A DNA stretch of 38,651 bases from a virus: the IMG/VR virus record IMGVR_UViG_3300025133_000290, positions 1 through 38,651 of that record. One strand, given 5' to 3'. This document shows, piece by piece, positions 3,069 to 35,121 of the stretch (the stretch's first letter is position 1; every line of letters begins with the position of its first letter). The notes beneath the pieces are model-generated. The model made no database searches. It was not told the DNA's origin and saw only the letters and a program-made list of their open reading frames with translations. The position numbers and the translations under genes are program-made.

Positions 3069-3096
3069 CGACGACGTAGTAACTTAGGAAAAATAT

Positions 3097-10000: not shown

Positions 10001-11518
10001 CAAACGCAAGAAAAGTGGCAACAACAACCACAAGGCATATATCCAAAAAACCATAGCTCCATCCTACCTCAAGCCGTAGTACGGCAATTTATCAATACCA
10101 ATACTGGTGAAAGATATTTTGATGCTAACCATTATACTGCAAGATTTTATGTCGATGCGTGGACTGAATTTACTGGACACACCGGATATCAAAATAACAC
10201 AGAATCTTGGGTAGGAAACACGATTTGGAAGAAGTCTGATTATACACTACCCAACGATCCCGATAAAGTACTTGGTACTACTTCTGAATATCGCATTTCG
10301 AAAAATACAAACATGGCGCTACCAACCGGGTATATACCGGGCGTTTCCACCACAGAAACAGGCGCTCCACAGGCTGATCCATGGCAATGGTGGCTAACAA
10401 ATTCAAACACAGGTGGCGCCAATCCGAATGAGAAGCTGCATAACTATTGGAATGGCAAGTTTTGGATAGGGATATCTCCTGCCATTTTTGCTACAAAATT
10501 ACAAGAGATCTGGGGGATAATGGATGAAATTGCCAAGAAAGACGAAGATGGTTGGTGGGATGTAACCACACAGCTGACAGAAGCTTATAAAAAACATGAG
10601 TTGCTAAAAGAACTACTTGATATGAAAGTTGAAGCAGTGCTGTCTCCTGATATGTATGGCGATGTTTATAAGCCAGAATGGAAGACAAAATCAGATTTTT
10701 TCATGTTTGTAGATGCTGACTCTCCTAGTGCCCTCGGTGGTTGGAATGCATATGCTGGCACTCAAGCTTGGAAAAGCACAGACGTTCATGGAGTACAATG
10801 GTTCAAGAGGACTGCTATCCAAAAGTTAGTAGATCAATATAGTAAAGAAGTATACGGAACTAATGAAAATGGAGAACCAACCTACAATGTCTATGGCTTA
10901 GCTTTCCATGACTGGACTTATCAACAAAAAATGAAGAGTCTGGAAGTTTTGATTAATCAAGCGCTTTTTGACGTATTGATCCCAACGTTGGCTGACGATC
11001 AACGATTCAAAGACTTTACCCAATCGATTCAATATAAAAGTTTGCTTTCCTTTTTATCAATTTTAGTAGCAGAAACAATAGAAGGCAACTATGGACAATT
11101 GAAAACCATGTTTAAAGGCACTCTCAATGCCGTTGAAACAGCTTTAAATACACTTGCTACAACAGCAAATAGATCAAAAGATCCAGAATTCTATCAAAAA
11201 ATTGGACAGGCACCCGGTGAAGACCAGCCAGCACCTGATTTTGATCTTGATTTCAACTGGATGCCAATAATATGGAAGGCGTTTTATACAACTATGGCAG
11301 ACATGACAGACCCGACTTGGACAACGCCATGGTTCTGGCCAGGACCGATGACACCAGTTGGAGTAATAGCTAAAATATTAGATGGTGCTCAAGACCAAGA
11401 TAAGCCGAATTCAATGGCGCCAGCAGAACTAAAGAATCCAATGGAGTTTGGCGATGACGACAGCACTGCTGGCACAAAAACAGATAGTGAAGAATGTGAG
11501 GACGAAGAAGCAGGCTAA
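4067..11518 (+). CDS. giant virion protein (2483 aa) with Ala-rich helical segment; hub or tape-measure candidate
   Basis: This protein lies between the putative hub/spike genes and gp25, so it is probably part of the tail or baseplate. The N-terminal ~700 residues mix helical and acidic segments, with one strongly hydrophobic stretch at ~138-160 (SFQVYLISSIVLANAI). Residues ~715-831 are an Ala/Glu/Gln-rich probable helix or coiled coil, continuing as a Lys/Glu helix to ~883. The remainder is mixed alpha/beta, becomes Trp-rich near the end (WTTPWFWPGP) and finishes with an acidic tail (EECEDEEAG). No peptidase, lysozyme or lectin signature was found. Tape measure is possible from the long helical segment, but much of the protein looks globular and no tail-assembly chaperone pair precedes it. 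AGGAAAT precedes ATG 4067. Confidence 0.6.
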   Translation: MSIPTNRWYIKDKVTIADRTSTFKTLELADNNFASMVVKADAEESSVYQIILKDSLAGVAESDLYDPSRFDDDDFVSDLRSRAALAYLSNKGIDKSDLMFGTTAAHENLLKLAYDATLITKRFYIDTGAASAGALISFQVYLISSIVLANAITDIAFREARQKETTPTPPIASNMAAIATPARPPTMLSLPTEESWVAMPSTKRFPVHEHLPNVSEILQSSGGSHLSNLALVLKQAKTKNDQLEEKYEIDFDSLAVDIKEFQNIVEAAYNDQPRQALWTKWAQVMQVAPNELTAAEQQKWLLPVREGIEYQFNIFTTPETGDIIEFDCICAYLPPQDEMIEAEEKALGYNYSEQGVIIMGKEMLNETYNTTVIFLIYQSQNIWQFLETKGHDWDIDEFVENFIRPIAKKRPKPLESVVVSNTTTEAPDYKSSADLREEILTTDQKVTVHKEVLEKYNQVGDPNFINILRNDKNIKNMSDIYKYIVNVVPLDSLLKYAADCLQKHVPELDLRTKVCDTIMRNLSLDQLDKALEYMDSNPNEALTAMHDEILLAAETSIKSYDQHAKLIKIDGTPTALYKKHIRMVLRGFWRDAVKYKDMISLVIFNALDEALSLLSSLDSSSALEALIKDQFAKQKKAAMKKLLDEYQNQKQELLGKYAGYVDEEQILKTLSEWSFAIGAKGGYKKFDLSRLSKMNMPKLIGGAKSLNGVGRDWGWEQGAVVTATAAAYTQAEAEAAEAATAVADATAALASAAGDALATAAAQAALDAANALAALAQAALDAALAAAQAAIAEAQATAEATIAKAEAQAEAALATADNAVAQAQAAAEEAMAFANSGALKEQLDEMLEKQLAKIEKDIEGKLKKRLKSEKEKALAKLEELTNPASMLFDALNNSLMGFNVTSITGDMVNKLGEVIVNFVDQVVTQMIMQIVEEIAFMCEASSKADFANMNVPDENTKFPADVEPVYPLEPTIVNQLITDPSVYDDINDFLRPPGRETKTTSKIPKLSQEFLDDLGKLLTLSEICALMNTSSGGSATAKKVIYNKVWFGILSLEHYAPLKKSIRNIGNLKKFFFILSAKVSKRRCVEKLNKLENTKKLLSNLCGPMANKALVNDLKGKATDAAIAQLLKQEDEIVDNLLDAMHKVKNSEPPPLFCGPWSDNKDKKPVFKSQQHASEKFINDKFLNSILGGITTSFEKDVGFYKSILTTAGGKTYQDAAKNITSALAGTYELKNMKTGAPIAQLNAAASAGKIVAPKVHATLASGEFSVDSFGNPLETSNYVRIIAPTGNGLIDDKIDLTLNFQNTEVGGVPPKTSRLEFGSSGQLAKIDNTLHTIAEDTIGPDEMFNQIVATFDDQNDYDVSVKDLVTFGVDFYAILLKQIIIEHAEYVSTQGLFQKNVFDKLALTRKNVCDPSLLGYKKLLKQIPANAAAMECKVDIKSSPTAFEIAQINGFVELSIKVVVIQEFLKSLMIFSAFGIEALLPEAAKEDSFYYKYLDNQIFKALRSSTKTYLQKFSRIVYAVNYNKKIEEVTAEETAKEIIGRHIIEIQAKIADKLAELPDNTDYNKNIGGTDDTAKGVLEEEFLQNLAYTNSRQIMRNLVPTKVFRPPEILEVDFPEKLLIIPDEYYSSNERLKNGGFFIEEGIEVIPKWKGDTGVFVKANYNGLANGSSPIAAADPNDPSVALPTHTLDDIITTSPIGKYLFLTDSNDNPAYKLKYEDLTEEQIIDYSTTIGKLPKSNIGKYTFAFWDKDTILAQYNMKITANAWQYNLGTAMTTIGNRLYKKFRSYKSLNILIPVAPGSVMEEKYNTLKQSTGFQGGGFTGASHMAKEFYDAVLNKKYFVKEGISEGGKLYFKLPILTQYGKDNTSTGDQSNMSMDELFNAFQEELNAPMFPSDPNSITIGEHLQAVYVKETIAKKTLETKLDELDKQIKISMVHKKDATIGTALPGENNDETYNKTPNLLKDKRGIWGIINSRPTQTQEKWQQQPQGIYPKNHSSILPQAVVRQFINTNTGERYFDANHYTARFYVDAWTEFTGHTGYQNNTESWVGNTIWKKSDYTLPNDPDKVLGTTSEYRISKNTNMALPTGYIPGVSTTETGAPQADPWQWWLTNSNTGGANPNEKLHNYWNGKFWIGISPAIFATKLQEIWGIMDEIAKKDEDGWWDVTTQLTEAYKKHELLKELLDMKVEAVLSPDMYGDVYKPEWKTKSDFFMFVDADSPSALGGWNAYAGTQAWKSTDVHGVQWFKRTAIQKLVDQYSKEVYGTNENGEPTYNVYGLAFHDWTYQQKMKSLEVLINQALFDVLIPTLADDQRFKDFTQSIQYKSLLSFLSILVAETIEGNYGQLKTMFKGTLNAVETALNTLATTANRSKDPEFYQKIGQAPGEDQPAPDFDLDFNWMPIIWKAFYTTMADMTDPTWTTPWFWPGPMTPVGVIAKILDGAQDQDKPNSMAPAELKNPMEFGDDDSTAGTKTDSEECEDEEAG
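6349..6411 (+). repeat. short direct repeat inside the Ala-rich segment
   Basis: A 21-base unit starting at 6349 recurs at 6391, 42 bases (14 codons) apart; its core is GCACAAGCCGCCCTCGACGC. It encodes AQAALDA twice. The 6210-6560 stretch is visibly richer in G+C than its surroundings because of Ala codons (GCC, GCA, GCT). This suggests the helix grew by in-frame duplication of short units. Confidence 0.6.
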
Positions 11519-11556: not shown

Positions 11557-11958
11557 ATGCCCACAGGTTTTGACGCTAGCTTGCCACTACAAAGTGATGA
11601 CACCGCTGGTTTTTATACTTTAAGCCAGACTATAAGAGAGAACACACATCAAAAAATTAAAATGTTGTTGATGACCGCTCCCGGCGAAAGGATGATGATA
11701 CCCAAATATGGAGTTGGTTTGCGTAGATTCTTGTTTGAAGAACCAGCTGGCGTCGAAATCGCAGTTATAAATAGAATAAGAGAGCAAATGGGAATATTCA
11801 TGAAGAATGTAAAAATAGTTAGTTTGGAAGTCAAGAGCAACCCCAATGCACCTGCTCGTGTAGGACAAAAACAAACATTGTCTCTCACAATGACTTATTT
11901 GATCAAAGGAGTCAATTTGATCGATTCAATACAGTTGGTAGAAACACAGCTATCATAA
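11557..11958 (+). CDS. gp25: baseplate wedge subunit gp25 (GPW/gp25 family)
   Basis: This 133-residue protein is nearly the same length as T4 gp25 (132). Family marks are the N-terminal helix IRENTHQKIKMLLMTAPGER, then MMIPKYGVGLRRFLFEEP, which matches the conserved GER-x-PxxGxGL pattern, followed by a helix (INRIREQMGIFM) and paired strands. In contractile tails gp25 sits at the inner wedge ring contacting gp6 and the first sheath ring. The old 'lysozyme' label for this family is not supported by catalytic residues here. A strong AAAGGAG lies seven bases before ATG 11557. gp6 follows immediately, as expected for the wedge module. Confidence 0.93.
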   Translation: MPTGFDASLPLQSDDTAGFYTLSQTIRENTHQKIKMLLMTAPGERMMIPKYGVGLRRFLFEEPAGVEIAVINRIREQMGIFMKNVKIVSLEVKSNPNAPARVGQKQTLSLTMTYLIKGVNLIDSIQLVETQLS

Positions 11959-11970
11959 GGTAAAAAAAGA

Positions 11971-13761
11971 ATGTCAATAAAAAAGCCAGCAATAAATTAT
12001 ACTAGCAAAGAATTTGTTACTATTAAAAATGATTTAGTCAATTATGCTAAGCGATATTATCCAGGTAAGTTCAGGGACTTTACTGCCAACTCTTTTGGCT
12101 CTTTGATGTTGGACACTACTGCTTATGTTGGCGATGTGCTTTCTTTTTACTTAGACTATCAGGTCAATGAATCCTTTTTATCAACAGCAATTGAATATGA
12201 TAATGTAGTAAAAGTAGCTAGACAGCTAGGCTATAGAGCAAATCTATCTCCTTCTTCATACGGAATATTAACGTGTTTTGTACTAATACCCTCATCAAAT
12301 GGTACTCCAAACTTTGCATATGCTCCTGTGGTAAAAAGAGGAAGCAAATTCAGGACCAGTGCGGGCAAACAGTTTACACTTTTAGAAGATATTAACTTTA
12401 AAGATACAGACAATGTTGAAGTTGTTGTGGGCAATGTTTCAGCCACGGGCGTACCTTTAACTTATGCAATCCGTGCTAAAGGTCAAGCAGTTTCTGGTGA
12501 AATAGCTGTTAGCAAGATCAGTATTGGGGATTACTCTAGGTTTCGTACTGTCACCATTCCTGGCAATAATATAACTGAAATTATTGGTGTTACTGATTCC
12601 GAAGGGAATAAATATTATGAAGTTGATTTTTTAACCCAAAATACAGTACACATACCCATTATCAATCGCGGTGACAATAGCGACACTGTGGTTAATATCC
12701 TTAAACCAATCTCCATCCCACGACGATTTACTGTTTTAAGTGATAGAGATAGAGTAAAATTACAATTTGGTTTCGGTACAAACGAGGACGCGGAGCAAAC
12801 ACTCAATCCAAACAATGTTTTAGTAAAAGAGCATGGTAAAAATTACGTCACAGATACTTCATTTGATCCCTCTACATTGCTCAAAACAGACAAATTAGGC
12901 GTCGTGCCAAGCAATACCGTGTTGACTATTGTTTATAGAATAAACTCAACTGATAGTACAAACACAGGTACAAATACAATTATAGTACCGTCTGACATAA
13001 TTTTTGATTTTGCTAGCCAAGCTACTTTAAACGCCAGTTCCGTGGAAAGCGTTCGAAGAAGTTTAGAAGTGACTAATGAACATCCATTTGTTGGTTCTAG
13101 TCCTCTCCCATCAGCAGAAGAGATTAAACAACGTGCATATGGAGTTTATTCAATGCAAAATCGAATGGTAACAAAAGATGACTTCATAGCAGCTGTTTAT
13201 AATATGCCAGCTAAATACGGATCGATTAAAAAGGTCAACGTTGTTCAAGATGCAAACAGCTTCAATCAAAGAAATATCAATTTATATGTAATATCTAATG
13301 ATAATTTAGGTAGGCTCGTCAAGGCAAATATGATAATAAAAAGTAATTTAAAAACTTTTTTATCAAAATCTAAAATGATAAATGATACCATAGACATATT
13401 GGATGCTAAAATAATCAATTTGCAAATCAAGTTCAAGATCGTTTCTTTCCCAAATGTCAATAAGTATAGTGTTTTGGAAGCCGCAAAACGAGAACTCACT
13501 CTATACTACAGCAATAGAAATGATTTTGAGATTGGTGAACCATTCAGTATAACAGACATTTTTGCTGTGTTAAAACATACCGCAGGGGTATTGGATGTTG
13601 TTGAAGTTGATGTCAACGAAAGCTCTGGTGGTGATTATGCTACTACTAATTTCAATGCTGATTCAAATAAAACTTCCGATGCAAGGAAAATCATTTGTCC
13701 CCCAGACTCTATTTTCGAAATAAAATTCTATAATTCTGATATCGTAGGAGCCGTCGTATAA
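11971..13761 (+). CDS. gp6: baseplate wedge subunit gp6 (baseplate J-like)
   Basis: This 596-residue protein is somewhat shorter than T4 gp6 (660). The N-terminal signature SIKKPAINYTSKEF, FRDFTANSFGSLMLDTTAYV and VGDVLSFYLDYQVNESFL, with VVKVARQLGYR, is typical of gp6/J-type wedge proteins of T4-like phages. The C-terminal third has the J-like pattern VTKDDFIAAVYNMPAKYGSI and the strand/helix repeat around residues 430-560. gp6 forms the wedge ring that ties the baseplate together and changes conformation with the sheath. It starts 12 bases after gp25 (AAGG upstream), and its stop overlaps the next ATG (TAATG at 13758-13763), pointing to coupled translation. Confidence 0.92.
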   Translation: MSIKKPAINYTSKEFVTIKNDLVNYAKRYYPGKFRDFTANSFGSLMLDTTAYVGDVLSFYLDYQVNESFLSTAIEYDNVVKVARQLGYRANLSPSSYGILTCFVLIPSSNGTPNFAYAPVVKRGSKFRTSAGKQFTLLEDINFKDTDNVEVVVGNVSATGVPLTYAIRAKGQAVSGEIAVSKISIGDYSRFRTVTIPGNNITEIIGVTDSEGNKYYEVDFLTQNTVHIPIINRGDNSDTVVNILKPISIPRRFTVLSDRDRVKLQFGFGTNEDAEQTLNPNNVLVKEHGKNYVTDTSFDPSTLLKTDKLGVVPSNTVLTIVYRINSTDSTNTGTNTIIVPSDIIFDFASQATLNASSVESVRRSLEVTNEHPFVGSSPLPSAEEIKQRAYGVYSMQNRMVTKDDFIAAVYNMPAKYGSIKKVNVVQDANSFNQRNINLYVISNDNLGRLVKANMIIKSNLKTFLSKSKMINDTIDILDAKIINLQIKFKIVSFPNVNKYSVLEAAKRELTLYYSNRNDFEIGEPFSITDIFAVLKHTAGVLDVVEVDVNESSGGDYATTNFNADSNKTSDARKIICPPDSIFEIKFYNSDIVGAVV

Positions 13762-15251
13762 TGAGCATTAAAAGATATTACGCCACGCAAGATAACACGA
13801 TTACAAATGCTTATAAATCTAATCTAGCAACACGCGGTGTCAGTGGCAACATGGGACAATCTGATATTTTAGAAGTGTTTAGCGTATATGCTCAAGCAAG
13901 TTCCTCCACCGGCTTATCCTCAGAACTTGCTAGAATACTCCTTCAATATGACACTAGTGCTATTTCTACAGATAGAACAAACAGTATCATTCCAGCATCC
14001 GGTAGTGTAAACTTTTTTTTAAAACTTTATGATGCAGAGCATACACAAACAACTCCAAAAAATTATAAACTTGTAGTTAGTGCCATTTCACAATCTTGGG
14101 AAGAAGGTCTTGGGCTTGATATGGAGAACTATACCGATCTTGATGCATCAAACTGGCTAACTGCTAGTGGAGTGACAAAGTGGGTTGATGATAACGGTAA
14201 CGTACAAACCGGCGGCAGCTATAAGACCGGATCCGATGCGAAACCAACAGAATATTTGTTTACTCAAGATTTTGATAGTGGCTTCGAAAACTTAGAAATT
14301 GATGTTAGCCATCTTGTTGAAGATTGGGTGGCTGGAACTGTAAACAATTATGGTTTTGGTGTTCGATTAACTAGTAGTCTAGAATCCACAACAGATTCTT
14401 ATTATACTAAAATGTTTTTTGCGAGAGGCTCACAATTCTTTTTCAAGAGACCCGTGCTTGAAGCACGATGGGACAACAGCAAAAAAGACAATAGAGGCAA
14501 TTTTTCTCTAAGCTCTTCCTTGGTACCAGCATCTGATAATTTAATGAAGCTCTATCTTTACAATACAGTTCGAGGCAACCTAACAAACATCCCCGCAGTT
14601 GGTACTGATAAATTGCGTGTTAGTATTTATAGTGGAAGTCAAGCCGGTGCCCCAGCGGGTAGCAAATTATTTTCACCAATCGGTGGAGGAGTAGTTGCGA
14701 CTGGAGATACAAATATCACTGCATCTTGGGTAGAAACTGGCATATATTCAGCATCTTTTGCTTACGTATCTTCCAGCATTACAAAGATATTTGATGTTTG
14801 GCATAGCGGTTCTGTTGAATATCACACTGGCTCGTCGATATCAGTGAAAACATATAATAGTTTAAGTTATAATTTGGATCAAAGATATGTTTCTAAGTTG
14901 ACTAATTTGCGAGATATATATTCTTCTAACGAGACAGCCCGGTTTAGATTATATGTTAGGCAAAAAGATTGGTCCCCAACTATTTATACAGTATCATCAA
15001 CAAACATAGAAACATCAATAGTTGAGGATGTTTATTATAAAATAGTTAGATCGTCAGACAACCTAGCAGTAGTACCTTTTGGTACGGGTTCTTTAAATCA
15101 TACTAGGTTGTCTTATGATGCAAGCGGAAGCTATTTTGACTTGAAGATGAACATATTTGATACAGACACTGCATATGCGCTGAGCTTCGCATATGTAATA
15201 AACGGTAGTTATGTTGAACAGCCAGAAACGTTTAGATTTAGAGTAGAATAA
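13761..15251 (+). CDS. DNRLRE-like virion structural protein
   Basis: This encodes 496 residues. The N-terminal ~230 are a strand-rich domain of the DNRLRE type: an opening RYYATQDNTITNAY, then ARILLQYDTSAIS, VNFFLKLYDAEH, LVVSAISQSWEEGLGLDMEN and a closing EIDVSHLVEDWVAG. This beta-sandwich domain occurs in extracellular and virion proteins. Residues ~250-496 are further beta-structure rich in Ser, Thr and Tyr. Its position between gp6 and the giant LamG protein makes it a wedge or outer baseplate component; in T4 gene 7 directly follows gene 6. The ATG overlaps the gp6 stop, and the next gene begins 3 bases after this stop, so the three should be made together. Exact role is unknown. Confidence 0.65.
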   Translation: MSIKRYYATQDNTITNAYKSNLATRGVSGNMGQSDILEVFSVYAQASSSTGLSSELARILLQYDTSAISTDRTNSIIPASGSVNFFLKLYDAEHTQTTPKNYKLVVSAISQSWEEGLGLDMENYTDLDASNWLTASGVTKWVDDNGNVQTGGSYKTGSDAKPTEYLFTQDFDSGFENLEIDVSHLVEDWVAGTVNNYGFGVRLTSSLESTTDSYYTKMFFARGSQFFFKRPVLEARWDNSKKDNRGNFSLSSSLVPASDNLMKLYLYNTVRGNLTNIPAVGTDKLRVSIYSGSQAGAPAGSKLFSPIGGGVVATGDTNITASWVETGIYSASFAYVSSSITKIFDVWHSGSVEYHTGSSISVKTYNSLSYNLDQRYVSKLTNLRDIYSSNETARFRLYVRQKDWSPTIYTVSSTNIETSIVEDVYYKIVRSSDNLAVVPFGTGSLNHTRLSYDASGSYFDLKMNIFDTDTAYALSFAYVINGSYVEQPETFRFRVE

Positions 15252-15254
15252 CAT

Positions 15255-18200
15255 ATGTCTTTAAAAGATTTATTCAAAGAAAAAAATTATCAATATCTTG
15301 CCCCATCGTCGCAAAATGATTTGACTGGCAATGTTGAATCTACAGGATATATTGAATTTTATCTTAAGAATAAAAACCGGTTCAAACCTTTAGTCGACTA
15401 TTCTAATCCTGCTAACTTCGCAAGATTTGGCTCAGCAGAAAAATATTATTATGATGGCGTTAAAAACATCACTCAAACTTATCCTTATGATGGCTCAAAA
15501 AAAGAAAAAATCCTTTGGGAAATCTCATCATCTCAGCTAGATCTTTACATATTTGAAAATGGATATCCACGAACCACTGGATATGCTACTTTTACTACAT
15601 CTAGTCTTACTGCAACTGACACTTCTGAAGAGTACGGTGCAGCAGGCACAGCTTCATACGAATATATTTATGTAAATGGTGGTCCACACGAGGGCACCGG
15701 CAAAGCAGTATACTTAGATCCTGATACTGGTGAAGCTAAATATCGCAAAAATGCAAATATTTGGGATACTTCCGAAAGCAGAGAATGCAATCTTAAGATT
15801 GGAGGCACATCTGGGAATACAGTAGAATTTTGGCTAAAAAAAGCTGATTTTGACCCAACTGCCACCGAAAAAGAAGTAATTTTTGATACCCACACGGTTT
15901 CTTCTGTGTCTTCCAGCGCTGCATATGGTCGCTTACGAATAGAAATGTCTGGCCATGGGGTCGGCACAAACACTTTATCTCCATTTTATGTTACTTTTAT
16001 GTCAGGTACTGATGGAATTTACAATCAAAATATCGGTTCTTCTATTACTACTGCGTCAATTGCAGATGATAGTTGGCATCATTATGCTTTCAGACTCAAA
16101 AATACCGGTAGTAATGTCGTAACTGATTTATTTATCGATGGAATACACAACCACCGCGTTACAGCTGGCACAGCTATCAATTATGTTAGCGGCACAATTG
16201 TTGGCACAATAGGTGCTTTGGTCACATCACCTTCTGGTTCTCATTCGGGCGCCCCACGAGCAGCAAAAGGGTGGGGTAAACTGTCAGGTTCTATCGACGA
16301 GTTTAGATATTGGAAGAGATGGAGACGATCTGATCAAATTCAACTACGATGGTTTGATCAAGTCGGCGGCGGCACCAACACAGATGATGCAAATACCGGC
16401 TTAGGCGTATACTTTAAGTTTAATGAAGGTGTTACTACAACAGGGTCAATTGACCAAACCGTATTAGATTATTCTGGCAGAGTAAGCAATGGTAGCTGGA
16501 CGGGCTGGAATGCTTTATATTCGCGAAATACTGGTTCTGCGATAGATGATTCTAATATGACAACGTATACCACCACTGAGTTTAAAGATCCGATTCTTTA
16601 TTCTACACATCCTGATGTGTCCGACTTCTTGACATCACAAAGGAATAAAGGAAAGGAATACGATCATGCTAATCAATCTAATTTACTTTATAGCCTTCCG
16701 TCATGGATTTTAGAAGACCATGATGCCAGTCGTCCAGAAAATGAAGGGATAATTGAAAACTCTCTTTGGAACCTAACGCAAATAATGTGCAGTCATTTTG
16801 ATGATCTTGCCACACACATCAATACTGTACCCAAATTAACACAATTGGATTACTTAAACGATTCTCAAAAACCTATTCCATTCATGGACAGAATCTTAGA
16901 ATCTAAAAACTTCATCACTCCGGAGATATTTTCTGCCCTCGACGCTCTAGAAGCGTTTGAAGATAGAACTCTAAATAAATCATATACTGAAAGTATACAT
17001 GATATTAAAAACATCATCTTACAAAACATTCACAACAATCTAGATTACATTTATAAAACCAAGGGTACTGAAAAATCGTTTAGGAACCTAGTACGCTGTT
17101 TTGGAGTTGATGACGATATATATCGATTTAATTTATACGGAAACAATTCTGAGTTTATCTTCAGAGATAACTATAGAACAGTTTCAGAGCGTTACAAATT
17201 GATCAACTTCAATTATAAACAAAACTATAGTGCGACTATATACCAGTATTCTAGCAGTTTGAATGCTAATTCTACCACGTTTATCTCAGCTAGTAAAAAT
17301 TACGATAGTTTGACGTCGCCCGAATCTAATTTACCTTTTTCTGTAGAAGCAAGCGTTATTTTTCCACATAGAGCGCTTGAATATGCTGATACAAGACAAA
17401 TGTCATATGGCTCTGACGATCTTATTAACAATTATCCTCTTGTGCTTACTGCCAGTTTGTTTGGTACACACACTGCCATTGATACTATTCCGAAAATAAC
17501 TCAGTGGAATAGTAATGATTATGCAAACTTTGTTGTAAAAGCGGTCAAACCGGAGACATATAGTGACAAAGCTTATTTTGTTCTAACTGGAACAGACGGA
17601 GGGTTTATTCCCGAACTCTCTTCTTCTGAGTTTTCTGAAGTTTATTCTAATAAAAATTGGAACTTTATGGTTTCGCTATACCCTGAAAAATACCTCAACG
17701 CAGGTATAGTTGCGGGTACGTCAGGCTCTGCGCATGGTGATTATATAGTAGAGTTTGCTGGCGTACAAAGTATCGTTAATACTGTTATTAGCGAGTTTAG
17801 TGTTACCGGTTCCATGACTGCCGAACAAGCAACTAAGTTTTTGGCATCTCCGAAGCGAGTTTTTGCTGGTTCACATCGAACGAACTTTACCGGAACTCTA
17901 ATAACTCCAACAGATATCAAAATGAGCAACTTACGAGTCTGGCAAAACAAATTAGATATTACAGATTTAAGAAAACATGCTTCTGACCCAGATAGCTATG
18001 GAATCAGAAATCCCGCACAGAACGCTTATTTGCTCAATTCGTCGATCAACACTACATATGTGCCAAATAAAGAAACTTTACTTTTGCATTGGAACTATGA
18101 TAATGTCACCGGCTCAGACGCTAGCGGCGAATTTATTGTAGAAGACCTTACATCAGGTTCAGCAACTCAAATAAACAGATATGGCTGGCTTTCTGAACTC

Positions 18201-21200
18201 AACAAACAACAATATCTCGGCAAAGGGTATGATTTTACAACATCAAGCGCAAAGATATGCTTGATTGACGAATTTGTCACAGCTAAGCCACAACTTCCCG
18301 AAGTTTTAGGAAGTGATGATATGATCACTGTAATGGAAAACGACGATATTTATTATACTAGAGACAGTCGTCCAACCTTCTTCGATTTATATGCGGAAAA
18401 AAGCCCGTATCAAAACATATCTGATGGCATGATGAAGTTTATGTCGACAGTCGTTGAATTCAACAACATTATAGGACATCCAGTCCACAGATATCGTCAT
18501 GAATATAAGCCGATGAATATTTTACGTGAACTATTTTTCCAGAGAATAGAAGATGCTCCTGATGTTGACAAATATATTGAGTATTTCAAGTGGTTTGACA
18601 TTGCAGTCACAGCTATGATACAAAAAATAGCACCAATGTCTTCTGGTTTAGACGAAAGACCCTTAAGAACTGTAATCGAATCACATATCTTAGAGAGAAA
18701 CAAGTATCAAAGTAAATTTCCATCATATGAGTTCAAACAAAGCGATCCTCAAGCTAGCATGCTTGGTGTCGCAGGCATGCTTTACGACTGGAAGCATGGT
18801 CATGCTCCCATAAGCGAAGAAGAAAACGAAAATTGTTTTTGGTGGAAAGATAGAGCTTTACGCGATAATCCCACTATAAGCTCAGACGATGCCGATGTTG
18901 ATTCTAATCGTAATACAATATTAGAAATAATTAACAATCAAAACAATGCTGCAGCGCCAAATCTAAGTGGTTCATCAGGTGCTTATGAAGGTTCGACATA
19001 CGCAATAAGAAAGTTTGCAAGACCTTATAAACTAAACGTCGATGCACAAAAACAAATACACGGCGGCACAAACTTCAATAGAAATAGAAAAATAGATTAT
19101 TGGCAAAGTGAGAATCGCACCGATCTGCAGATCAATCCATATGCCTCTGTGGCACCAAGTGATTACGTTGCAACTTCATCTTGTGATGATGCTTTGGCGC
19201 CAAATCAAAAAGAATCTAGGTTTTTCTCTTTTCTGAAAGATGGTATCAATAGTAATATAACATCTCCTTTCAATCTTGTAAGCGCTTCCACAAACTCGTC
19301 AGCAGGTGTTTATGGAGCTACAAACCAATTTGAAATTGTAAATCTTCATTATGATACATATGGATATGCAGCCGAAACTCCAATGCAAAGTCCCTTTACT
19401 GACGCTCAAGTTGGAGGTCACCAACGAAGACATGTTCCTTTTAGTACAGGCAGCGATTCTTGCGTAACCAGACCAGAATTATTTAGAATACATACGATTG
19501 ACGGTTTAGATTATTTATGGGTGTTTAGTTCTGATCAAGCTCCAGGGGGTGGACTTGGTACCAATATGCCAAGAGCAGAATATTATCGCGATGGAATAGC
19601 AAAACGACCCGTTAACATTGCCAATATCAACTATAACACCGGCTCTAGGATGCTAGGCAACTATTCCAAAGGCTATGAAATCGTCATGACCAATGGCAGA
19701 TCGGTCAATAATAGATTTCTTGCCGAATCCACCGGACAAATACTCACAGCCAGTGCAGACAACTACTATGTTTCAGGTGCTGTCGACTTCGCTCTTCCAA
19801 GAAGAGACCTAACAGGCAGCAACAAATACATTATTGCCAACCGCTTTAGCGCTCCTGGCGACCCTGCAACAATGGCTGAAGGCATGCTGGATGTTGAAGC
19901 TGGAGAATACAGCGTTTACAATGCATTGCCATGGCGCAATCTAAGCGTAAGACAACCGCTCAACGAATTACAAGCAGACCATTGCAAGCAATTTGGATAT
20001 TTTAGTGATGCATTTGATTCAGCAAGTTATGTATTAGCAGGAGAAACTTATCCTGGCACAAGCGGCTCCGTAAGTGCAGCAAATTATGATGGTTCTGCTT
20101 CTTTCCACAAAGTCAATAGAAACGGAAGGTTACAACCTTATCTTTCAGAGAATAGTTTAGATACGTATACAAACACTAAAGTACTTTATTTTGACGGACA
20201 AGATTCCTACATGATTATTGGTACCGCAGCCGTCTGGGATGCAATTATAGGAAATGATTTGACTGGAGAAACAGATCAAACATATACTCTTTCTGCTTGG
20301 GTGAATGCAGATGATCTTGATCCCACTTTTGGCGGTGGTCTGCCGCGAATTTTTGATTTTGGAGAAAGCGATATTACCTTTTACGCGAACGCCAGCGGAA
20401 AATTATATTTTACTAATAGATTTGAAACTAGTGAAGGTAAATGGCATACAACAGATGACGCAATTAGTATAAATCAATGGTACCATGTAGCTGTAACTTA
20501 TGATGCATCCAACGCCGATAACATTCCAAAAATATATGTTGATGGCTACGAGGTTGACATAACTGAAGAAACTACCCCGCAAGGAGCAAATTACGGAATC
20601 GTTACTGATCCCTGCGCGATAGGGACAAACCTGGACGGCGGTTCTGCCGATAATAACTGGGAAGGTTATATAGATGAACCTAGCATATGGGATGCAGTTT
20701 TAACACCTTCCCAAATAGAGGAAATATATCTTGGATCTGCAAATTATGTTTATCGAAGTGGACCGGGCAGGTTGAACAAACATTCAGCAGCAGGCGAAGA
20801 AGGTAGCTTAATTTCTTGGTGGAGAGTGGATAATTGGCCGGGGGGGACGGTTGCGCTAGAGGACGACTATGGCTCCAATGATGCTACGCTACGTAACTAT
20901 GCAATGGTGGTTGATAACGATGGATCCGATGTTTCAATACTTCAGCCAGTTATAACTTACGCAGAACAAACTAACAAAAAAAATGACAACTGGTTTGTCC
21001 AACATCAAATCCCACAAACTGACCTTCAGTATGCTTGGATTACAGCAAGCATTGTAAGCGATTATAATGGAGCAGCCAAATATGGCTACGAAAAACCAGA
21101 CTTCAGCAATGCTAGCTTGGCTTCTACTGATTTGACGTTTTGCAGTGCTAGTGATTTTGTTGTGTATAACAAGACCAGTGACAGTCGCACACGCTGGGGC

Positions 21201-24200
21201 AAAGACAAGGACGCATTTGCCGCAGGAGAACAAGAAGTTGCACCAGTAGATTTTGTAGGTCTTAATACTGCCATATATGATCCAATTACAGCTTCAAGCA
21301 ATACTCTAGGGTATGATAATTCCACTACCACAGTTTCATCTTATGTCAATAAGACCGATGGGACTGGCTTGAATGGGTTTGTAGTGCTCTATCCAGTTGG
21401 CACAGGCGAACAATCTACACTTAATGGTATCCTTCTTAATCGCCAAGGTCCATATGGCGCCGCCAATTGGAAACTCTATAGAAAAGAAGCTCATCCCATA
21501 GTAAGAGCACACAGAGAAGAAAACAGAATAAGTTATTTAGATATAAAGATTGGAACCGCCACAGTAGAAGCGCTCTCAGATACCGAAACAGTTATACACA
21601 AAACAAACGATACTATTGTTTTAACTTCTTCTATAGAACCAATGATTACAAGCAAATACAAACCTTTGGTACACAAACTAGCTGTTAAGCTGTCTCCGGA
21701 GAAGCCGTTATCATATAAAGCTACAACTATAGAGCATACGTATATGAATAATATTAATTATTTTACTGATCACTCTGTAGATGGCTTCAGCTTGGATAAC
21801 AAAATATTAGACCCCAGCATAAATGTGCATCATGAAGAGCAAACCCTAGATGCTATAAATTATTATCTATATACTGAAGACTTTGCCGAAGCTCCCCAAT
21901 ATAACCCTATTGCAAAGCTAATCTCATATTCAGTTAGCGAAACAGTATTCCCCAAAGAACAATATACTTATCTTTCTAAGATCAGAGGCAGAGAAAACTT
22001 TGTATGCCCCTTTTGGAGAGAGACTCACGCGGAAAGATTAGAAACCGGTGCAGAAAATAGCATGGGATATACGATCCCGGTACAAAGCATGTGGGCGTTA
22101 GACGGCAGATCTAATATAGCCACAGCCCTCCCAGCAACTGGTGGCTACGATGGCGCTGGAGAATTATTGTCTAATGCTGGAATATATCGCGATGAATCTG
22201 ATGACATAACAAGAATCGGTCCTCTTTATGCATTACCCGTTAGCACTTCATTTGGCGTGTATAATGATGTATTTTGGAGCGCTGGAGTACAAAGTGGTCT
22301 AGACCCATTTGCTTCTTCTTATGCTGCATATGCTCTAGAAATGCAAAAACTAGGAAAAGATTTTGGTATTATTCCGGAGTTCAGAATATCAGAATATGTT
22401 GAAGACTACATCAAGACTAACTTTAATATTAATACTAAAAATCCAAGTCAAGCTGGTAATTCAAACAAACCTTTCTTATCTTTGACTGGCAGTTCTTTAG
22501 ACAATACAGATCCTGCATTCTATAGAACATACAGTAATAGCGATTTCCTAAAATATTTTGCAGTCAGAAATATGGAAAACGATATCAACGCAGGCGACGG
22601 CACGGTAATATCAGGTGTAACTCTTAAGTGTAAAGCTATGATGAAATTCTTGCCATATGACGGATTTTATCCAGCGCAGCGTACTTTACAATTGGCTGAG
22701 ATGTTCAACGCTTCTTATTTAGGTTCGCAAGGCGAACTCGCCGCCACCATAGAAGAAAAAAGAGCGGGTCTAACACCTTTTTTCGCTCCCGGCATTATGT
22801 ATAATTCGATCAAAGCGGGACTGGCTGTAGACTTTCCAATGCCTGCAAATAGTCTTTATCTTACAAGTTCCGGCTTCGGTAGCTCTGAAGGTCCACCGGT
22901 TTACCTCGACACCCAAATATGGAAACGAATTCCGTTTGAAGCTATACTCGACCCGATGTCAATGCGCAGTGATACCTCGTGGTATGATTTATTCAATCAG
23001 CGCCCAACAGTGGGCAAAGGCGGCGGCGGCACACATGCTGGCGGGGATACGAACCAATATGGTAGTTTTAATTCTTTCACCGGTGAAGAATATGATTTAC
23101 AAGCAACATACGATCACAATCCTCTTTCATACGTCTTAGCTTCACATAATTTCTTTGCTGAGACTATCAATTTCTTTTTACCTCAAGGAAGAATGACAAG
23201 TTTAGTTTCTTTGCCTGCTAGCCACCCATCGTTCGCCAACCCAACCACCAATATTGTCAGAGCCAGATCCGCTGGCGCCTTCGCGGGTCCAACTAGTTAT
23301 GAAATGTATATTAGAATCTGCAACGATAAGTTCCCGGCAACGGGCAAGGATGCCTCATATACTAATTATTCTGATAGAACCTCGTTTGGAGTCCCAATCG
23401 GCGCATCAGCCGGTCTTGACTATGGCGGGTTCGTACCTTCTTGGAAAGACTGCATGAACGGTGGACCCGTTCATGGCAGTGCTGCTATTGACGGGGAAAC
23501 GACCGATGAGCAACTAGTTGCTGGTTATTTAAAATTGATCTGGACACCAGAAAATCCAGAACTACCTGATGATTACACTTTCGATACTATTACTAAGCAG
23601 CTATCAGCTAGCTTCTTTGGACCGTCTACTGGCGACGTCGCCTGTCAAAAATATGCAATGCACTTTACTGCCTCTTTCAATATTACACCAGGAAAGATTT
23701 TATCAACTGACTTTGATGCAGTTACTAAAGAGCCTATAACAGTGAGCACACAAGGATCTGATGAATTAAAAGTTCTAATAATAGAACCAAAGTGGGAAAC
23801 GCCAATGCTTAATTTTATCAATGCAAACAGTCGCCATTCTGCTGGCACTGGTGATACTGGTCGAATCGGTCTGTGGCATCAAACCGGCAGTATCGATGAC
23901 AATAACGGCATATTCATAACGGTCCAAGACACTGCAAATGTTAACAACACTACCTGTGGCTCACTAGCTGATTTATTAGGATTTGACAAAACTGTTGGCA
24001 AAGGCACTAACACTCGTTTAGGAAACATAGCAGAGACAAAAGAAATCAGCGAAGCAGTTGTTGCTATTCCCTATAAACGAAAGGATGCACAGGGAGTTCC
24101 ATCATCCGGTAAAGTACCCTTTCCAATATCTAGAAAAGTTATACAGCAAGCTGAACAAATTCTAAAAGGCGCAAGACAATCAGATAATCCACTACCAGAT

Positions 24201-24890
24201 AATAGTATTGTACAAATGGTAAAGAAGATGAAAAAATATGTCATCCCTCCTCATCTAGACTTTGTAACTTATGGACAAAATACAGGCGGCGAAGAGTTGA
24301 CAGACGGTCCCTTTGCTATGTATATCTTTGAGTTCAAACACAAGCTTACACAACAAGATTTAGCCAATATTTGGCAAAATTTACCCCCTGCTTCTATGGG
24401 CGCTGCCCCTTATTATCACGAGAGCGATGAAGTCACCATTTCTCATGAGGTCTTCAATTCATCAAAACTAAATATTCTTAATGGCGCTCTCTCTTTTTCA
24501 GAAAAAAACCTTTTTGATGCAAATAGAATCGACCGCTCACGTGAAATAGCAGAAGACATTCATTGGATGGTTTTTAAGGTAAAGAAAAGAGCAGCAACTA
24601 ATTATTATGATAAAACAACTGATCTTAATGACGGCGGCGAATATAAGAAAGTGTTCGTGAATGAAGCGACTGACCGCCCTAACATGACTTATAACTGGCC
24701 ATATGACTACTTTAGCATGGTTGAATTGGTAAAATTGGACGCAGAAATAGTTATGCAACCTAATGATGGCAGCGCAGTATCAACACCGCAGCTAACACTT
24801 ACTAATATCTTCGCTGGCGAAACGGAGACAACAGACGAGCCGCCATTAGAGGACGCCGAAACCGCACTTAATCCGGATATTATTTACTAA
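15255..24890 (+). CDS. giant baseplate/fibre protein (3211 aa) with LamG-like domains and a gpI/gp7-like segment
   Basis: This is the largest gene in the window. The first LamG/concanavalin-like domain spans ~185-360 (TVEFWLKKADF, WHHYAFRL, LFIDGIHNH, GSIDEFRYWKR). A helical segment at ~470-640 (LLYSLPSWILED, LTQIMCSHFDDL, IHDIKNIILQNIHNNLDYIY, KTKGTEKSFRNLVRCFGVD) resembles the core of P2 gpI-type baseplate proteins. A second, weaker sandwich lies at ~690-915 (WNFMVSLYPEKY, MSNLRVWQNKLD). The clearest LamG is at ~1640-1830 (YTLSAWVNADDL, WYHVAVTYD, KIYVDGYE, GYIDEPSIWD). The remaining ~1400 residues are mostly beta and unassigned. By position it replaces T4 gp7 (1032 aa) and may combine wedge and host-surface glycan-binding functions. 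It could instead be an adhesin-like side fibre. Confidence 0.72.
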   Translation: MSLKDLFKEKNYQYLAPSSQNDLTGNVESTGYIEFYLKNKNRFKPLVDYSNPANFARFGSAEKYYYDGVKNITQTYPYDGSKKEKILWEISSSQLDLYIFENGYPRTTGYATFTTSSLTATDTSEEYGAAGTASYEYIYVNGGPHEGTGKAVYLDPDTGEAKYRKNANIWDTSESRECNLKIGGTSGNTVEFWLKKADFDPTATEKEVIFDTHTVSSVSSSAAYGRLRIEMSGHGVGTNTLSPFYVTFMSGTDGIYNQNIGSSITTASIADDSWHHYAFRLKNTGSNVVTDLFIDGIHNHRVTAGTAINYVSGTIVGTIGALVTSPSGSHSGAPRAAKGWGKLSGSIDEFRYWKRWRRSDQIQLRWFDQVGGGTNTDDANTGLGVYFKFNEGVTTTGSIDQTVLDYSGRVSNGSWTGWNALYSRNTGSAIDDSNMTTYTTTEFKDPILYSTHPDVSDFLTSQRNKGKEYDHANQSNLLYSLPSWILEDHDASRPENEGIIENSLWNLTQIMCSHFDDLATHINTVPKLTQLDYLNDSQKPIPFMDRILESKNFITPEIFSALDALEAFEDRTLNKSYTESIHDIKNIILQNIHNNLDYIYKTKGTEKSFRNLVRCFGVDDDIYRFNLYGNNSEFIFRDNYRTVSERYKLINFNYKQNYSATIYQYSSSLNANSTTFISASKNYDSLTSPESNLPFSVEASVIFPHRALEYADTRQMSYGSDDLINNYPLVLTASLFGTHTAIDTIPKITQWNSNDYANFVVKAVKPETYSDKAYFVLTGTDGGFIPELSSSEFSEVYSNKNWNFMVSLYPEKYLNAGIVAGTSGSAHGDYIVEFAGVQSIVNTVISEFSVTGSMTAEQATKFLASPKRVFAGSHRTNFTGTLITPTDIKMSNLRVWQNKLDITDLRKHASDPDSYGIRNPAQNAYLLNSSINTTYVPNKETLLLHWNYDNVTGSDASGEFIVEDLTSGSATQINRYGWLSELNKQQYLGKGYDFTTSSAKICLIDEFVTAKPQLPEVLGSDDMITVMENDDIYYTRDSRPTFFDLYAEKSPYQNISDGMMKFMSTVVEFNNIIGHPVHRYRHEYKPMNILRELFFQRIEDAPDVDKYIEYFKWFDIAVTAMIQKIAPMSSGLDERPLRTVIESHILERNKYQSKFPSYEFKQSDPQASMLGVAGMLYDWKHGHAPISEEENENCFWWKDRALRDNPTISSDDADVDSNRNTILEIINNQNNAAAPNLSGSSGAYEGSTYAIRKFARPYKLNVDAQKQIHGGTNFNRNRKIDYWQSENRTDLQINPYASVAPSDYVATSSCDDALAPNQKESRFFSFLKDGINSNITSPFNLVSASTNSSAGVYGATNQFEIVNLHYDTYGYAAETPMQSPFTDAQVGGHQRRHVPFSTGSDSCVTRPELFRIHTIDGLDYLWVFSSDQAPGGGLGTNMPRAEYYRDGIAKRPVNIANINYNTGSRMLGNYSKGYEIVMTNGRSVNNRFLAESTGQILTASADNYYVSGAVDFALPRRDLTGSNKYIIANRFSAPGDPATMAEGMLDVEAGEYSVYNALPWRNLSVRQPLNELQADHCKQFGYFSDAFDSASYVLAGETYPGTSGSVSAANYDGSASFHKVNRNGRLQPYLSENSLDTYTNTKVLYFDGQDSYMIIGTAAVWDAIIGNDLTGETDQTYTLSAWVNADDLDPTFGGGLPRIFDFGESDITFYANASGKLYFTNRFETSEGKWHTTDDAISINQWYHVAVTYDASNADNIPKIYVDGYEVDITEETTPQGANYGIVTDPCAIGTNLDGGSADNNWEGYIDEPSIWDAVLTPSQIEEIYLGSANYVYRSGPGRLNKHSAAGEEGSLISWWRVDNWPGGTVALEDDYGSNDATLRNYAMVVDNDGSDVSILQPVITYAEQTNKKNDNWFVQHQIPQTDLQYAWITASIVSDYNGAAKYGYEKPDFSNASLASTDLTFCSASDFVVYNKTSDSRTRWGKDKDAFAAGEQEVAPVDFVGLNTAIYDPITASSNTLGYDNSTTTVSSYVNKTDGTGLNGFVVLYPVGTGEQSTLNGILLNRQGPYGAANWKLYRKEAHPIVRAHREENRISYLDIKIGTATVEALSDTETVIHKTNDTIVLTSSIEPMITSKYKPLVHKLAVKLSPEKPLSYKATTIEHTYMNNINYFTDHSVDGFSLDNKILDPSINVHHEEQTLDAINYYLYTEDFAEAPQYNPIAKLISYSVSETVFPKEQYTYLSKIRGRENFVCPFWRETHAERLETGAENSMGYTIPVQSMWALDGRSNIATALPATGGYDGAGELLSNAGIYRDESDDITRIGPLYALPVSTSFGVYNDVFWSAGVQSGLDPFASSYAAYALEMQKLGKDFGIIPEFRISEYVEDYIKTNFNINTKNPSQAGNSNKPFLSLTGSSLDNTDPAFYRTYSNSDFLKYFAVRNMENDINAGDGTVISGVTLKCKAMMKFLPYDGFYPAQRTLQLAEMFNASYLGSQGELAATIEEKRAGLTPFFAPGIMYNSIKAGLAVDFPMPANSLYLTSSGFGSSEGPPVYLDTQIWKRIPFEAILDPMSMRSDTSWYDLFNQRPTVGKGGGGTHAGGDTNQYGSFNSFTGEEYDLQATYDHNPLSYVLASHNFFAETINFFLPQGRMTSLVSLPASHPSFANPTTNIVRARSAGAFAGPTSYEMYIRICNDKFPATGKDASYTNYSDRTSFGVPIGASAGLDYGGFVPSWKDCMNGGPVHGSAAIDGETTDEQLVAGYLKLIWTPENPELPDDYTFDTITKQLSASFFGPSTGDVACQKYAMHFTASFNITPGKILSTDFDAVTKEPITVSTQGSDELKVLIIEPKWETPMLNFINANSRHSAGTGDTGRIGLWHQTGSIDDNNGIFITVQDTANVNNTTCGSLADLLGFDKTVGKGTNTRLGNIAETKEISEAVVAIPYKRKDAQGVPSSGKVPFPISRKVIQQAEQILKGARQSDNPLPDNSIVQMVKKMKKYVIPPHLDFVTYGQNTGGEELTDGPFAMYIFEFKHKLTQQDLANIWQNLPPASMGAAPYYHESDEVTISHEVFNSSKLNILNGALSFSEKNLFDANRIDRSREIAEDIHWMVFKVKKRAATNYYDKTTDLNDGGEYKKVFVNEATDRPNMTYNWPYDYFSMVELVKLDAEIVMQPNDGSAVSTPQLTLTNIFAGETETTDEPPLEDAETALNPDIIY

Positions 24891-25921
24891 TGAGTTATTT
24901 AGACCCAAAAGAAAGAGTTATTGATTTAGAATTGACGTCTTATGGTAGACATCTTCTGGCAATTGGTAAACTAAAACCAACATATTATGCTTTTTTTGAT
25001 GATGATGTCATCTACGATGGCGGCTACGCTTCGGTTAACGAAGGACAAGACAACATAGAACCAAGAATTCAAGAAAACACACCAAGAATGGCAGCACAAG
25101 GAATCTTTTCTTCAAGAGAAACTGCCGTTTTTGAGGCTACTCCCAACGTTATTAATGATTTGATTATCGGTCAAGATATAGAAAATCGAAAAGAGAAAAA
25201 CAAACAGATATTGCTAACGAAAACCAGAATTCAGGAAGGTCCAGAGCAAAACGAAATATTACAATTGCCTTTAGGAAAGTCTAATCCTGTTTTTGACAAT
25301 GCTCCTTCATGGAATGCAAGATTTCTCAAGGCGCCCTTATCGTCCTCAGTCAATTATTTGGAAGTCAGCGGTACTAGAGGCACATATTATAGAGATATAC
25401 CACAGCTAAATGCTAATATTCAATATTATATTGAGAAAAGTGGAGACGGATGGGTCACGTCCGTAGCGCCCGAAGATGGAGAAAACGTATCAGATATTAT
25501 TAAAGAAGAAACTATTCTTTTAGATGATGGCGGCATGATAGAGTTTAAACGCGACGTATTAATAATAAGGCTGGAAGAAAGCAATGTGTTTTTCCAAAAA
25601 GACAATTTTGAAGTGGAATTTTTTGAAGTGGAGACTGTTGATGGTGTAGATTTTTTGAACCCTCTAAAATTTTATGCCAATACAAATCAATTTATGAGAG
25701 ACACGCCAGAGAACTCCTGTCATGAAAATGATACCGTTCAAAAATACTTTGATGTTTTTACTGATGCTGAAATACCGCCTGAAGAAATATGCCCTCTAAT
25801 CAAAGAAGATTCTACTAAACAATTTTATCATTCAAAGCTGTTTGACTGCGAAGACATAATTCCAGATAGAGAACCGGAAGATATTTATGATGATAGAGAA
25901 AGTCTAAAGGATATTTGCTAA
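24890..25921 (+). CDS. virion structural protein with MSYLD N-terminal motif
   Basis: This encodes 343 residues. It opens with MSYLDPKERVIDLELTSYGR followed by HLLAIGKLKPTYYAFFDDD. A similar opening occurs in the protein at 33056-34042. A strand-rich middle is followed by a C-terminal region rich in Asp and Glu (SLKDIC end). From memory, proteins with this opening recur as structural proteins of marine T4-like phages, without known function. Both gene boundaries are TAATG overlaps (24888-24892 and 25919-25923), so it is locked between the giant LamG protein and the 1070-aa protein. I infer a wedge-associated or fibre-connector role from context only. Confidence 0.6.
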   Translation: MSYLDPKERVIDLELTSYGRHLLAIGKLKPTYYAFFDDDVIYDGGYASVNEGQDNIEPRIQENTPRMAAQGIFSSRETAVFEATPNVINDLIIGQDIENRKEKNKQILLTKTRIQEGPEQNEILQLPLGKSNPVFDNAPSWNARFLKAPLSSSVNYLEVSGTRGTYYRDIPQLNANIQYYIEKSGDGWVTSVAPEDGENVSDIIKEETILLDDGGMIEFKRDVLIIRLEESNVFFQKDNFEVEFFEVETVDGVDFLNPLKFYANTNQFMRDTPENSCHENDTVQKYFDVFTDAEIPPEEICPLIKEDSTKQFYHSKLFDCEDIIPDREPEDIYDDRESLKDIC

Positions 25922-33055: not shown

Positions 33056-34042
33056 ATGGCTTTTTTAGATAACTCTGGTGACATTATTTTAGATGCCGTA
33101 TTGACAGATACGGGAAGAATGCGCTTAGCGCGAGGTGATGGTTCTTTCAAAATCGCCAAATATGCGTTAGGTGACGATGAGATCGATTATGAATCTTACA
33201 ATGCAGGACACCTTAGCGGCTCAGCATATTACGATTTAGAGATCCTACAAACTCCCATCTTCGAAGCATTTACGAACAACACAGCCACCATGAAAACAAA
33301 ACTGGTAAGCTTATCAAATAATAATCTTCTTTATTTGCCGATAATGAAAATAAATGACAGGTCCGTTCTCTCCAGTCCCGGCGCCGCCGCCGGTTTTATG
33401 GCTTCCGGCTCTCATGTTTGTTTTGTCAACGAGACAACAGGAAAATGGCTGTATGGTGACGAAATTGACGGCGCTACCACGACCGGGACATGGAATATTG
33501 ATGCAAATGCCGAAGGTTACATAGACGGATCCGCTATGACAGACATCGGTAATCGAATTAGAGTCGACCAAGGTTTGGACACTAGTGAGGTTTCACCCTC
33601 TTTAGTGCTAGATCCAGAATTAAAAGAAACCCAATATATTGTAGAGATTGATTCACGCTTTGCTAAGATATATGATAAGCTAGGAAGTGCTAACGTGTCA
33701 GCGAATCCATCTTTTATTGATGATGATTCGATTGCAACATATTATTTCACACAAGGACAAGGCGGTTTTGTTGGCGAGTCTGAACGAGGTCCAAAAACTG
33801 ACAATCCCGCGAATAATCCAGGGAAGGAAACCATCTTAGGTCCACGTGGAACTCGTCTGACTTTTGGTCTTTTAGCTTCTACTGATTTGGTGTCAAGCAA
33901 TTACTTGTTTACCACTCTCGGCACAACACTAGTGCGTGAGGACGTGACATGGTATTTTATTGATTCAACAATCAGAGTTACCGGAGTAACAACTGGATAT
34001 AGATTAGATATCCCAATAAGATTTCTAAAGGTTAATAAATAA
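33056..34042 (+). CDS. virion structural protein with MAFLD N-terminal motif
   Basis: This encodes 328 residues, opening MAFLDNSGDIILDAVLTDTG then RMRLARGDGSFKIAKYALGD. The opening resembles the 343-aa protein at 24890 (MxxLD, a short D-x-xLT segment, G-R-x-xLA-x-G, then an aromatic/DD run). The rest is beta-rich with Gly/Ser loops, and the C-terminus (RVTGVTTGYRLDIPIRFLKV) looks like a terminal beta-sandwich strand pair. From memory, this N-terminal type recurs in marine T4-like phage structural proteins of unknown role. It has a strong Shine-Dalgarno (AAAGGAG) and heads a run of three genes with short spacers, so it may be abundant in the virion. Confidence 0.62.
   Translation: MAFLDNSGDIILDAVLTDTGRMRLARGDGSFKIAKYALGDDEIDYESYNAGHLSGSAYYDLEILQTPIFEAFTNNTATMKTKLVSLSNNNLLYLPIMKINDRSVLSSPGAAAGFMASGSHVCFVNETTGKWLYGDEIDGATTTGTWNIDANAEGYIDGSAMTDIGNRIRVDQGLDTSEVSPSLVLDPELKETQYIVEIDSRFAKIYDKLGSANVSANPSFIDDDSIATYYFTQGQGGFVGESERGPKTDNPANNPGKETILGPRGTRLTFGLLASTDLVSSNYLFTTLGTTLVREDVTWYFIDSTIRVTGVTTGYRLDIPIRFLKVNK
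34034..34041 (+). promoter_or_regulatory. late-promoter-like element AATAAATA
   Basis: A second AATAAATA overlaps the stop of the 328-aa gene and lies 25 bases before ATG 34066. Position and sequence fit a relaxed T4-type late promoter, but the local AT bias makes chance occurrence plausible. Confidence 0.3.
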
Positions 34043-35118: not shown

Positions 35119-35121
35119 AAA

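Follow-up and report, generated by a model that had tools for sequence, protein, structure and literature searches.

What does a protein of 3211 residues, rich in LamG domains, do in a phage genome at the place where phage T4 encodes the baseplate wedge protein gp7? The question is raised by an IMG/VR record of 38,651 bases (the full record, classed as linear and probably a fragment; hereafter the window), in which a stop-free ORF at 15255..24890 on the + strand encodes the protein (P0001); the neighbouring baseplate genes discussed below lie on the same strand. The initial annotation had described this ORF as a LamG-rich protein in the place of T4 gp7. The ORF is intact, its reading frame is kept across hundreds of relatives, and a second IMG/VR contig (L004) carries a copy with 99.8% identity over residues 1-1893, so the ORF is neither a chance frame nor an assembly artefact. 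The best explanation, to which we give a probability of about 0.68, is an enlarged baseplate wedge protein of the gp7/gpI/TssG type. The protein belongs to a real, large and conserved family, most likely of inflated gp7-type wedge proteins in which two lectin folds are constitutive, a further lectin cassette is optional and the C-terminal partner can be separated.

The position of the gene is the first piece of evidence. Upstream lie genes for a gp25-like wedge subunit (11557..11958; phrog_261 E 5e-8, phrog_43 E 9e-7) and a gp6-like wedge subunit (11971..13761; phrog_219 E 1e-19), the family profile of the latter finding T4 gp6 with E 3e-5, which places the giant gene in a T4-type baseplate wedge operon with the order gp25 - gp6 - p496 - giant - p343. 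The giant gene is the second gene after gp6, in its neighbourhood though not strictly adjacent, as the conserved gene p496 (13761..15251) intervenes. Its start lies 3 bases past the p496 stop codon; at the other end, its stop and the start of the conserved downstream gene p343 (24890..25921) overlap in a TAATG junction. Among the loci that have both halves of the giant protein in one ORF, p496 is found immediately before it in 108 of 109, and in 98 of 109 the first recognised gene after it is of the p343 type.

Some other products near these genes can be described as well. Just upstream of the gp25-like gene, a protein of 2483 aa (4067-11518) contains a long alanine-rich stretch that is probably a coiled-coil; a PHROGs search with it gave no match. 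The same protein is present in L004, and in the relatives L007 and L009 its place is taken by frames truncated at the locus boundary, with about 2,100 codons present. A protein at 1365-3068 has a C-terminal GH25 lysozyme domain (E 1e-19) and possibly takes the role of T4 gp5. T4 gp10 was considered as the identity of p1254 and rejected, as the match obtained with one sequence (E 0.0045) was lost with a 40-sequence profile.

Relatives of the giant protein are numerous. Protein-guided scans of IMG/VR found the N-terminal half on at least 548 contigs and the C-terminal half on at least 473, and region HMMs placed both halves in one complete ORF at 102 of 171 loci, some of which share a contig (2793-5558 aa, median 3122). 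The largest proteins, L007:10001-26674 (5558 aa), L009:10001-25723 (5241 aa) and L006:5231-20188 (4986 aa), have 2100-2700 residues inserted between the regions M and C1; against Pfam, the insert of L007 had no match and that of L006 one marginal match to Phage_attach. A T4-type gp23 is encoded by all six long relatives (183-193 kb), and in each of them the helical segment H1 described below occurs exactly once. The gp23 of the relative L009 is nearest to those of Microcystis phage Mel-JY01, a huge phage, Flavobacterium phage immuto and Rhodothermus phage RM378, a placement with the Far-T4 members of the T4 superfamily (PMC4360716, PMC7198788). This placement was made on the L009 genome and not on the window fragment; the gp6 of the window is nearest to those of Mel-JY01 and immuto. 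The phages with the giant gene are marine phages, of the Far-T4 type by these marker proteins.

In named phages the homologue is shorter. Immuto (QQO92079.1, 1265 aa), Mel-JY01 (WWT39511.1, 1336 aa) and the huge phage LR756508.1 (1400 aa) have a homologous core of the helical segments H1 and H2 in the slot after gp6, but the C half was not detected in them. The core profile did not match Rhodothermus phage RM378 or the huge phage LR756511. Three marine virus proteins in BFVD/UniProt (A0A516LBS1, A0A1B1IWQ4 and A0A0F7L9Z0) belong to the same family, sharing 35-64% identity across roughly the full modelled 1200 aa, and are uncharacterised and unnamed in those tables, with no annotated function. 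The family is large, widespread and uncharacterised; a literature search found no publication naming it, and it is unnamed in the libraries searched.

The N-terminal part was modelled with AlphaFold2 (residues 1-1200, 67 sequences, mean pLDDT 79.9, pTM 0.66), using an alignment rebuilt without the named-phage sequences L001-L003. The model has, in this order, N-terminal helices, a LamG1 sandwich, H1 (450-614), a beta region (640-1012) and H2 (1053-1125). The initial annotation had read a LamG domain at about 185-360, a weaker one at about 690-915 and a helical core from the translation alone, and had named AlphaFold modelling as a check; the predicted sandwiches stand at both LamG positions and the helical core is formed by H1 and H2. 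The N-terminal helices (residues 19-105, 15309..15569) are conserved, with 46% mean pairwise identity in 67 relatives. LamG1 (residues 185-363, 15807..16343, with a conserved C-flank to residue 440) has 96% occupancy and matches Pfam Laminin_G_3 (PF13385) with E 2.5e-5, which is just below the gathering score in the window copy and above it in the relatives L010, L038 and L019. In Foldseek the N-terminal model found neurexin, pentraxin and laminin LG domains with E about 1e-6, and tandem-LG structures aligned over 735-820 columns, as is expected if both N-terminal sandwiches are LamG-like. In L019:4118-13825 and L023, two to three LamG1-type matches precede H1, whose start is shifted from residue 450 to about 680; LamG1 itself can thus occur in several copies.

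H1 (residues 450-622, 16602..17120) is followed by the beta domain B2, or LamG2 (residues 640-1012, 17172..18290), and by H2 (residues 1045-1155, 18387..18719). The weak middle LamG of the initial annotation holds better as a structure than as a sequence. A second sandwich is predicted at about 640-950, and the hhalign comparison with LamG1 gives P 0.006 (best of 30 shuffles 0.017), but Pfam has no match to this region in the window and only one (E 0.048) among 40 relatives. A LamG-like nature of LamG2 is thus supported by the predicted structure and more weakly by sequence. In immuto the alignment has a gap in place of the beta domain between H1 and H2 while the helical core is retained, suggesting that H1 and H2 are the core and that LamG2 is either an insertion relative to it or was lost in immuto. 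Neither the N and C profiles nor those of H1 and LamG2 gave a credible match in sequence searches of the PDB.

To see whether this core is related to gp7, a profile of 56 H1 members was run against three others, those of T4 gp7, of P2 gpI and of the N-terminal region of cyanophage Syn1_094. It is known that gp6 and gp7 correspond to gpJ and gpI and to TssF and TssG, and that the gp7-type protein forms a 2:1 heterotrimer with the gp6 counterpart (PMC6300606). Within the H1 region (about 445-655), a K-x-K-G-T signature stands in register in all four families: DYIYKTKGTEKSFRNLVRCFG in the window (residues 597-617, 17043..17105), YDFYSTKGIEASYKFLFKVL in T4, TSFYRAKGTDRSIKFIFNTL in the cyanophage giant (188-210 of Syn1_094) and YFIHCHKGTIGAIRRVVEPLG in P2. 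Profile-profile comparison of H1 gave P 1.1e-4 with the cyanophage giant, 1.3e-3 with P2 gpI and 8.9e-3 with T4 gp7, the cyanophage giant and T4 gp7 gave P 3.8e-4 with each other, and in each of five comparisons none of 40 column-shuffled controls equalled the real value. The alignments span 20-43 columns, with HHalign probabilities of 4.5-56%, and the motif was not recovered when T4 gp7 and P2 gpI were compared directly. An unbiased scan of these 56 sequences against Pfam gave Tail_P2_I (the P2 gpI family) as the entry with the most matching members (5, best E 0.021). Proteins of the gp7 type fold as a helical bundle with a trifurcation domain. The N-terminal model has helices, but T4 gp7 is missing from the 50 PDB hits listed for it, where LamG matches dominate, and H2 had no similarity to gp7, gpI or the cyanophage protein. 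The similarity of H1 to gp7 and gpI is therefore weak but consistent over four families. It supports homology with gp7 without proving it, and we hold the giant protein to be probably, not demonstrably, a gp7/gpI-type wedge protein, as the shared stretch is short and the comparison of folds is indecisive. The claim that it stands in the place of T4 gp7 is thus supported by the slot two genes after gp6 and by the signature, and becomes one of a probable identity of type.

The known systems differ from the giant in several respects. T4 gp7 (NP_049765.1, 1032 aa), whose segment FYSTKGIEASYKFLFKVL at 732-751 aligns with H1, also follows gp6 in the wedge operon, but directly and without p496; it has a third of the length, in agreement with the early estimate that the giant is about three times as long, and its similarity is below usual detection. 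T4 gp7 is not known to contain a LamG domain. P2 gpI, the gp7 counterpart of simple contractile tails, follows gpJ, the gp6 counterpart, and has the KGT signature in register, but is 176 aa long and lacks the beta domains and the C half. The cyanophage proteins of T4-like GC 826 (Syn1_094, 3274 aa; S-PM2 YP_195115.1, 3048 aa, annotated as a virion structural protein) are likewise giants and are encoded directly after gp6 and shortly before gp8. They differ in having the signature near the N terminus, and as they gave no significant match to the remaining family profiles, the rest of the cyanophage giant is unrelated as far as tested.

With its size, its several LamG domains and its weak similarity to gp7, the protein could instead be a peripheral host-recognition or fibre-like protein beside the baseplate, and not a gp7 homologue, gp7 having been replaced by something else. 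Such a replacement has been proposed for VrlC in cyano- and pelagimyophages, related marine phages from which gp7 is reported to be missing (PMC7029224). VrlC itself (GC 828) was tried as the family of the giant and rejected, since Syn1_097 gave a best E of 0.48 against the family profiles, and the same result speaks against this reading. The strict place of the gene behind gp6 and p496, the signature shared with gp7 and gpI beyond shuffled controls, and the helical core retained in the phage that lacks LamG2 also argue against it, and we consider a peripheral protein of this kind quite unlikely.

The third LamG lies in the middle region of the giant protein and behaves differently from the other two. 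Following the conserved middle region M (residues 1200-1623, 18852..20123; alignments A1 and A8), the LamG3 cassette (residues 1624-1908, 20124..20978) matches Laminin_G_3 at 1673-1821 with E 4e-24 in the whole protein and 5e-21 as a segment alone, so the LamG first placed at about 1640-1830 is confirmed; its profile aligns with that of LamG1 with P 7e-7. In the window 289 residues lie between 1623 and 1912. Of 53 relatives compared at this site, 47 have just a linker of 13-36 aa, and the remaining six, one of them the window, have 179-300 aa; a Laminin_G_3 match anywhere in the middle region was found in 11 of the 53. LamG3 is thus an optional cassette at one site, and alone among the three LamGs behaves like a swappable module.

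LamG1 and LamG2 are constitutive. They are present in 95-96% of relatives, and their mean pairwise identities (42% and 37%) are not far below that of H1 (48%; H2 has 54%). From these alignments, their conservation does not look like that of fast-evolving host-range modules, and being conserved almost like the helical core they may be structural. It is possible, if on balance improbable, that all LamGs of the wedge protein are structural, making wedge-wedge contacts or holding peripheral baseplate proteins, with host binding left to other genes. Besides the conservation of LamG1 and LamG2, this would agree with the LamG-bearing ORFs found elsewhere in some of the genomes: three of the six long relatives (G002, G004 and G006) have further LamG matches in ORFs of 266-1398 aa. 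On the other hand, LamG3 comes and goes at one site as a specificity module would and a structural joint would not, and LamG/pentraxin folds are common among phage proteins annotated as lectin-like. The ORFs in these three genomes also leave the proposal that the baseplate replaces separate fibres unsupported. As for the glycan-binding array claimed initially, the exchangeable LamG3 fits it, but the near-universal and almost core-like LamG1 and LamG2 also fit a structural role. The giant protein may still bind host glycans, and the idea of a baseplate that reads glycans is made plausible by a report on Pseudomonas phage K8, where mutation of a putative baseplate wedge protein confers binding of oligosaccharides and a wider host range (PMC9887876).

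The C half (residues ~1995-3211, 21237..24887) was modelled as a mixed alpha/beta fold (residues 2030-3211, pLDDT 70.9, pTM 0.80), and its structure search matched no solved structure (best E 0.23). The early description of about 1400 unassigned beta-rich residues holds in that the C part resembles nothing solved, its modelled fold being mixed alpha/beta. The chain is single in the window, as claimed, but this is not obligatory: of 72 representatives 58 are fused and 14 are split, and in most of the split members the N part measures about 1700-2500 aa and the C part about 950-1960 aa. The boundary between them corresponds to window residue ~1995, and blastp to the separate C-half protein L010b aligns from its residue 7. 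The state changes 8 times on the tree, at least 3 of the changes being forced by well-supported branches, and one clade contains seven split members. GGAG-type ribosome-binding sites often precede the downstream start codons, indicating that the split C-half ORFs are real genes. In L073:3833-14771 the protein is divided over three ORFs: one of 414 aa has the N terminus with LamG1, one of 1672 aa spans H1 to M, and one of 1519 aa is the C half.

The giant could accordingly be read as a chance fusion of two functionally separate proteins, with a wedge protein at the N terminus joined to an unrelated structural protein that has a task of its own, for example in the outer baseplate or as a fibre anchor. 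The split forms on several branches with their ribosome-binding sites, and immuto, which has the N part only (1265 aa), suit such an origin. The majority of representatives are nevertheless fused, and the halves remain neighbours in the genome even if split, which suggests physical association. We regard a chance fusion as doubtful, and it is largely compatible with the enlarged wedge protein that we prefer.

If the protein is a wedge protein of the gp7 type, H1 and H2 would pack with two copies of gp6 in each of six wedges, as in T4. LamG1, before H1, and LamG2, between H1 and H2, would then lie on the outer face of the wedge, where they would probably be fixed domains that make interactions or face carbohydrates, and LamG3, as the exchangeable cassette of the middle region, would be the likeliest element for binding a receptor or glycan. 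The C half would be another structural protein, joined covalently in the window and encoded by a gene of its own in many relatives. We infer this assembly, as well as the copy number and the binding. A more far-reaching version, which we think rather unlikely, is a gp7 with two constitutive lectin domains and an exchangeable third, through which the baseplate of a major uncultivated group of marine T4-type phages would directly read glycans on the host surface; by analogy with T4, a baseplate with about six copies would then expose at least 12 LamG domains.

It has been reported that gp7 is undetectable in phage P1 and in cyano- and pelagimyophages (PMC9024508, PMC7029224). A signature common to P2 gpI, T4 gp7, the cyanophage giant and the Far-T4 family suggests that gp7 was inflated rather than lost, and it offers a way of looking for gp7 where it has gone undetected. 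The giant family is abundant in IMG/VR. Its split and fused forms, and the site with and without LamG3, allow the part that binds the host to be told experimentally from the part that builds the wedge.

The window has further genes downstream of the giant gene. The products of 24890-25921 and 33056-34042 start with similar motifs (LDPKERVIDLELTSYGRHLLAIG and LDNSGDIILDAVLTDTGRMRLARG), and the family of the latter is common to immuto, Mel-JY01 and LR756508 over the first ~100 residues. Two neighbouring proteins of 350 and 399 aa (34066-36321), for which a PHROGs search gave no match, have similar C-terminal motifs (VGLYSADNELLAVAKLSEPLKK and IGIYDENKNLIAVANLAKPVKK). Directly 3' of the structural genes, at 36340-38227, lie a RuvC-like resolvase gene (phrog_159) and a DNA-primase-like gene (phrog_47).
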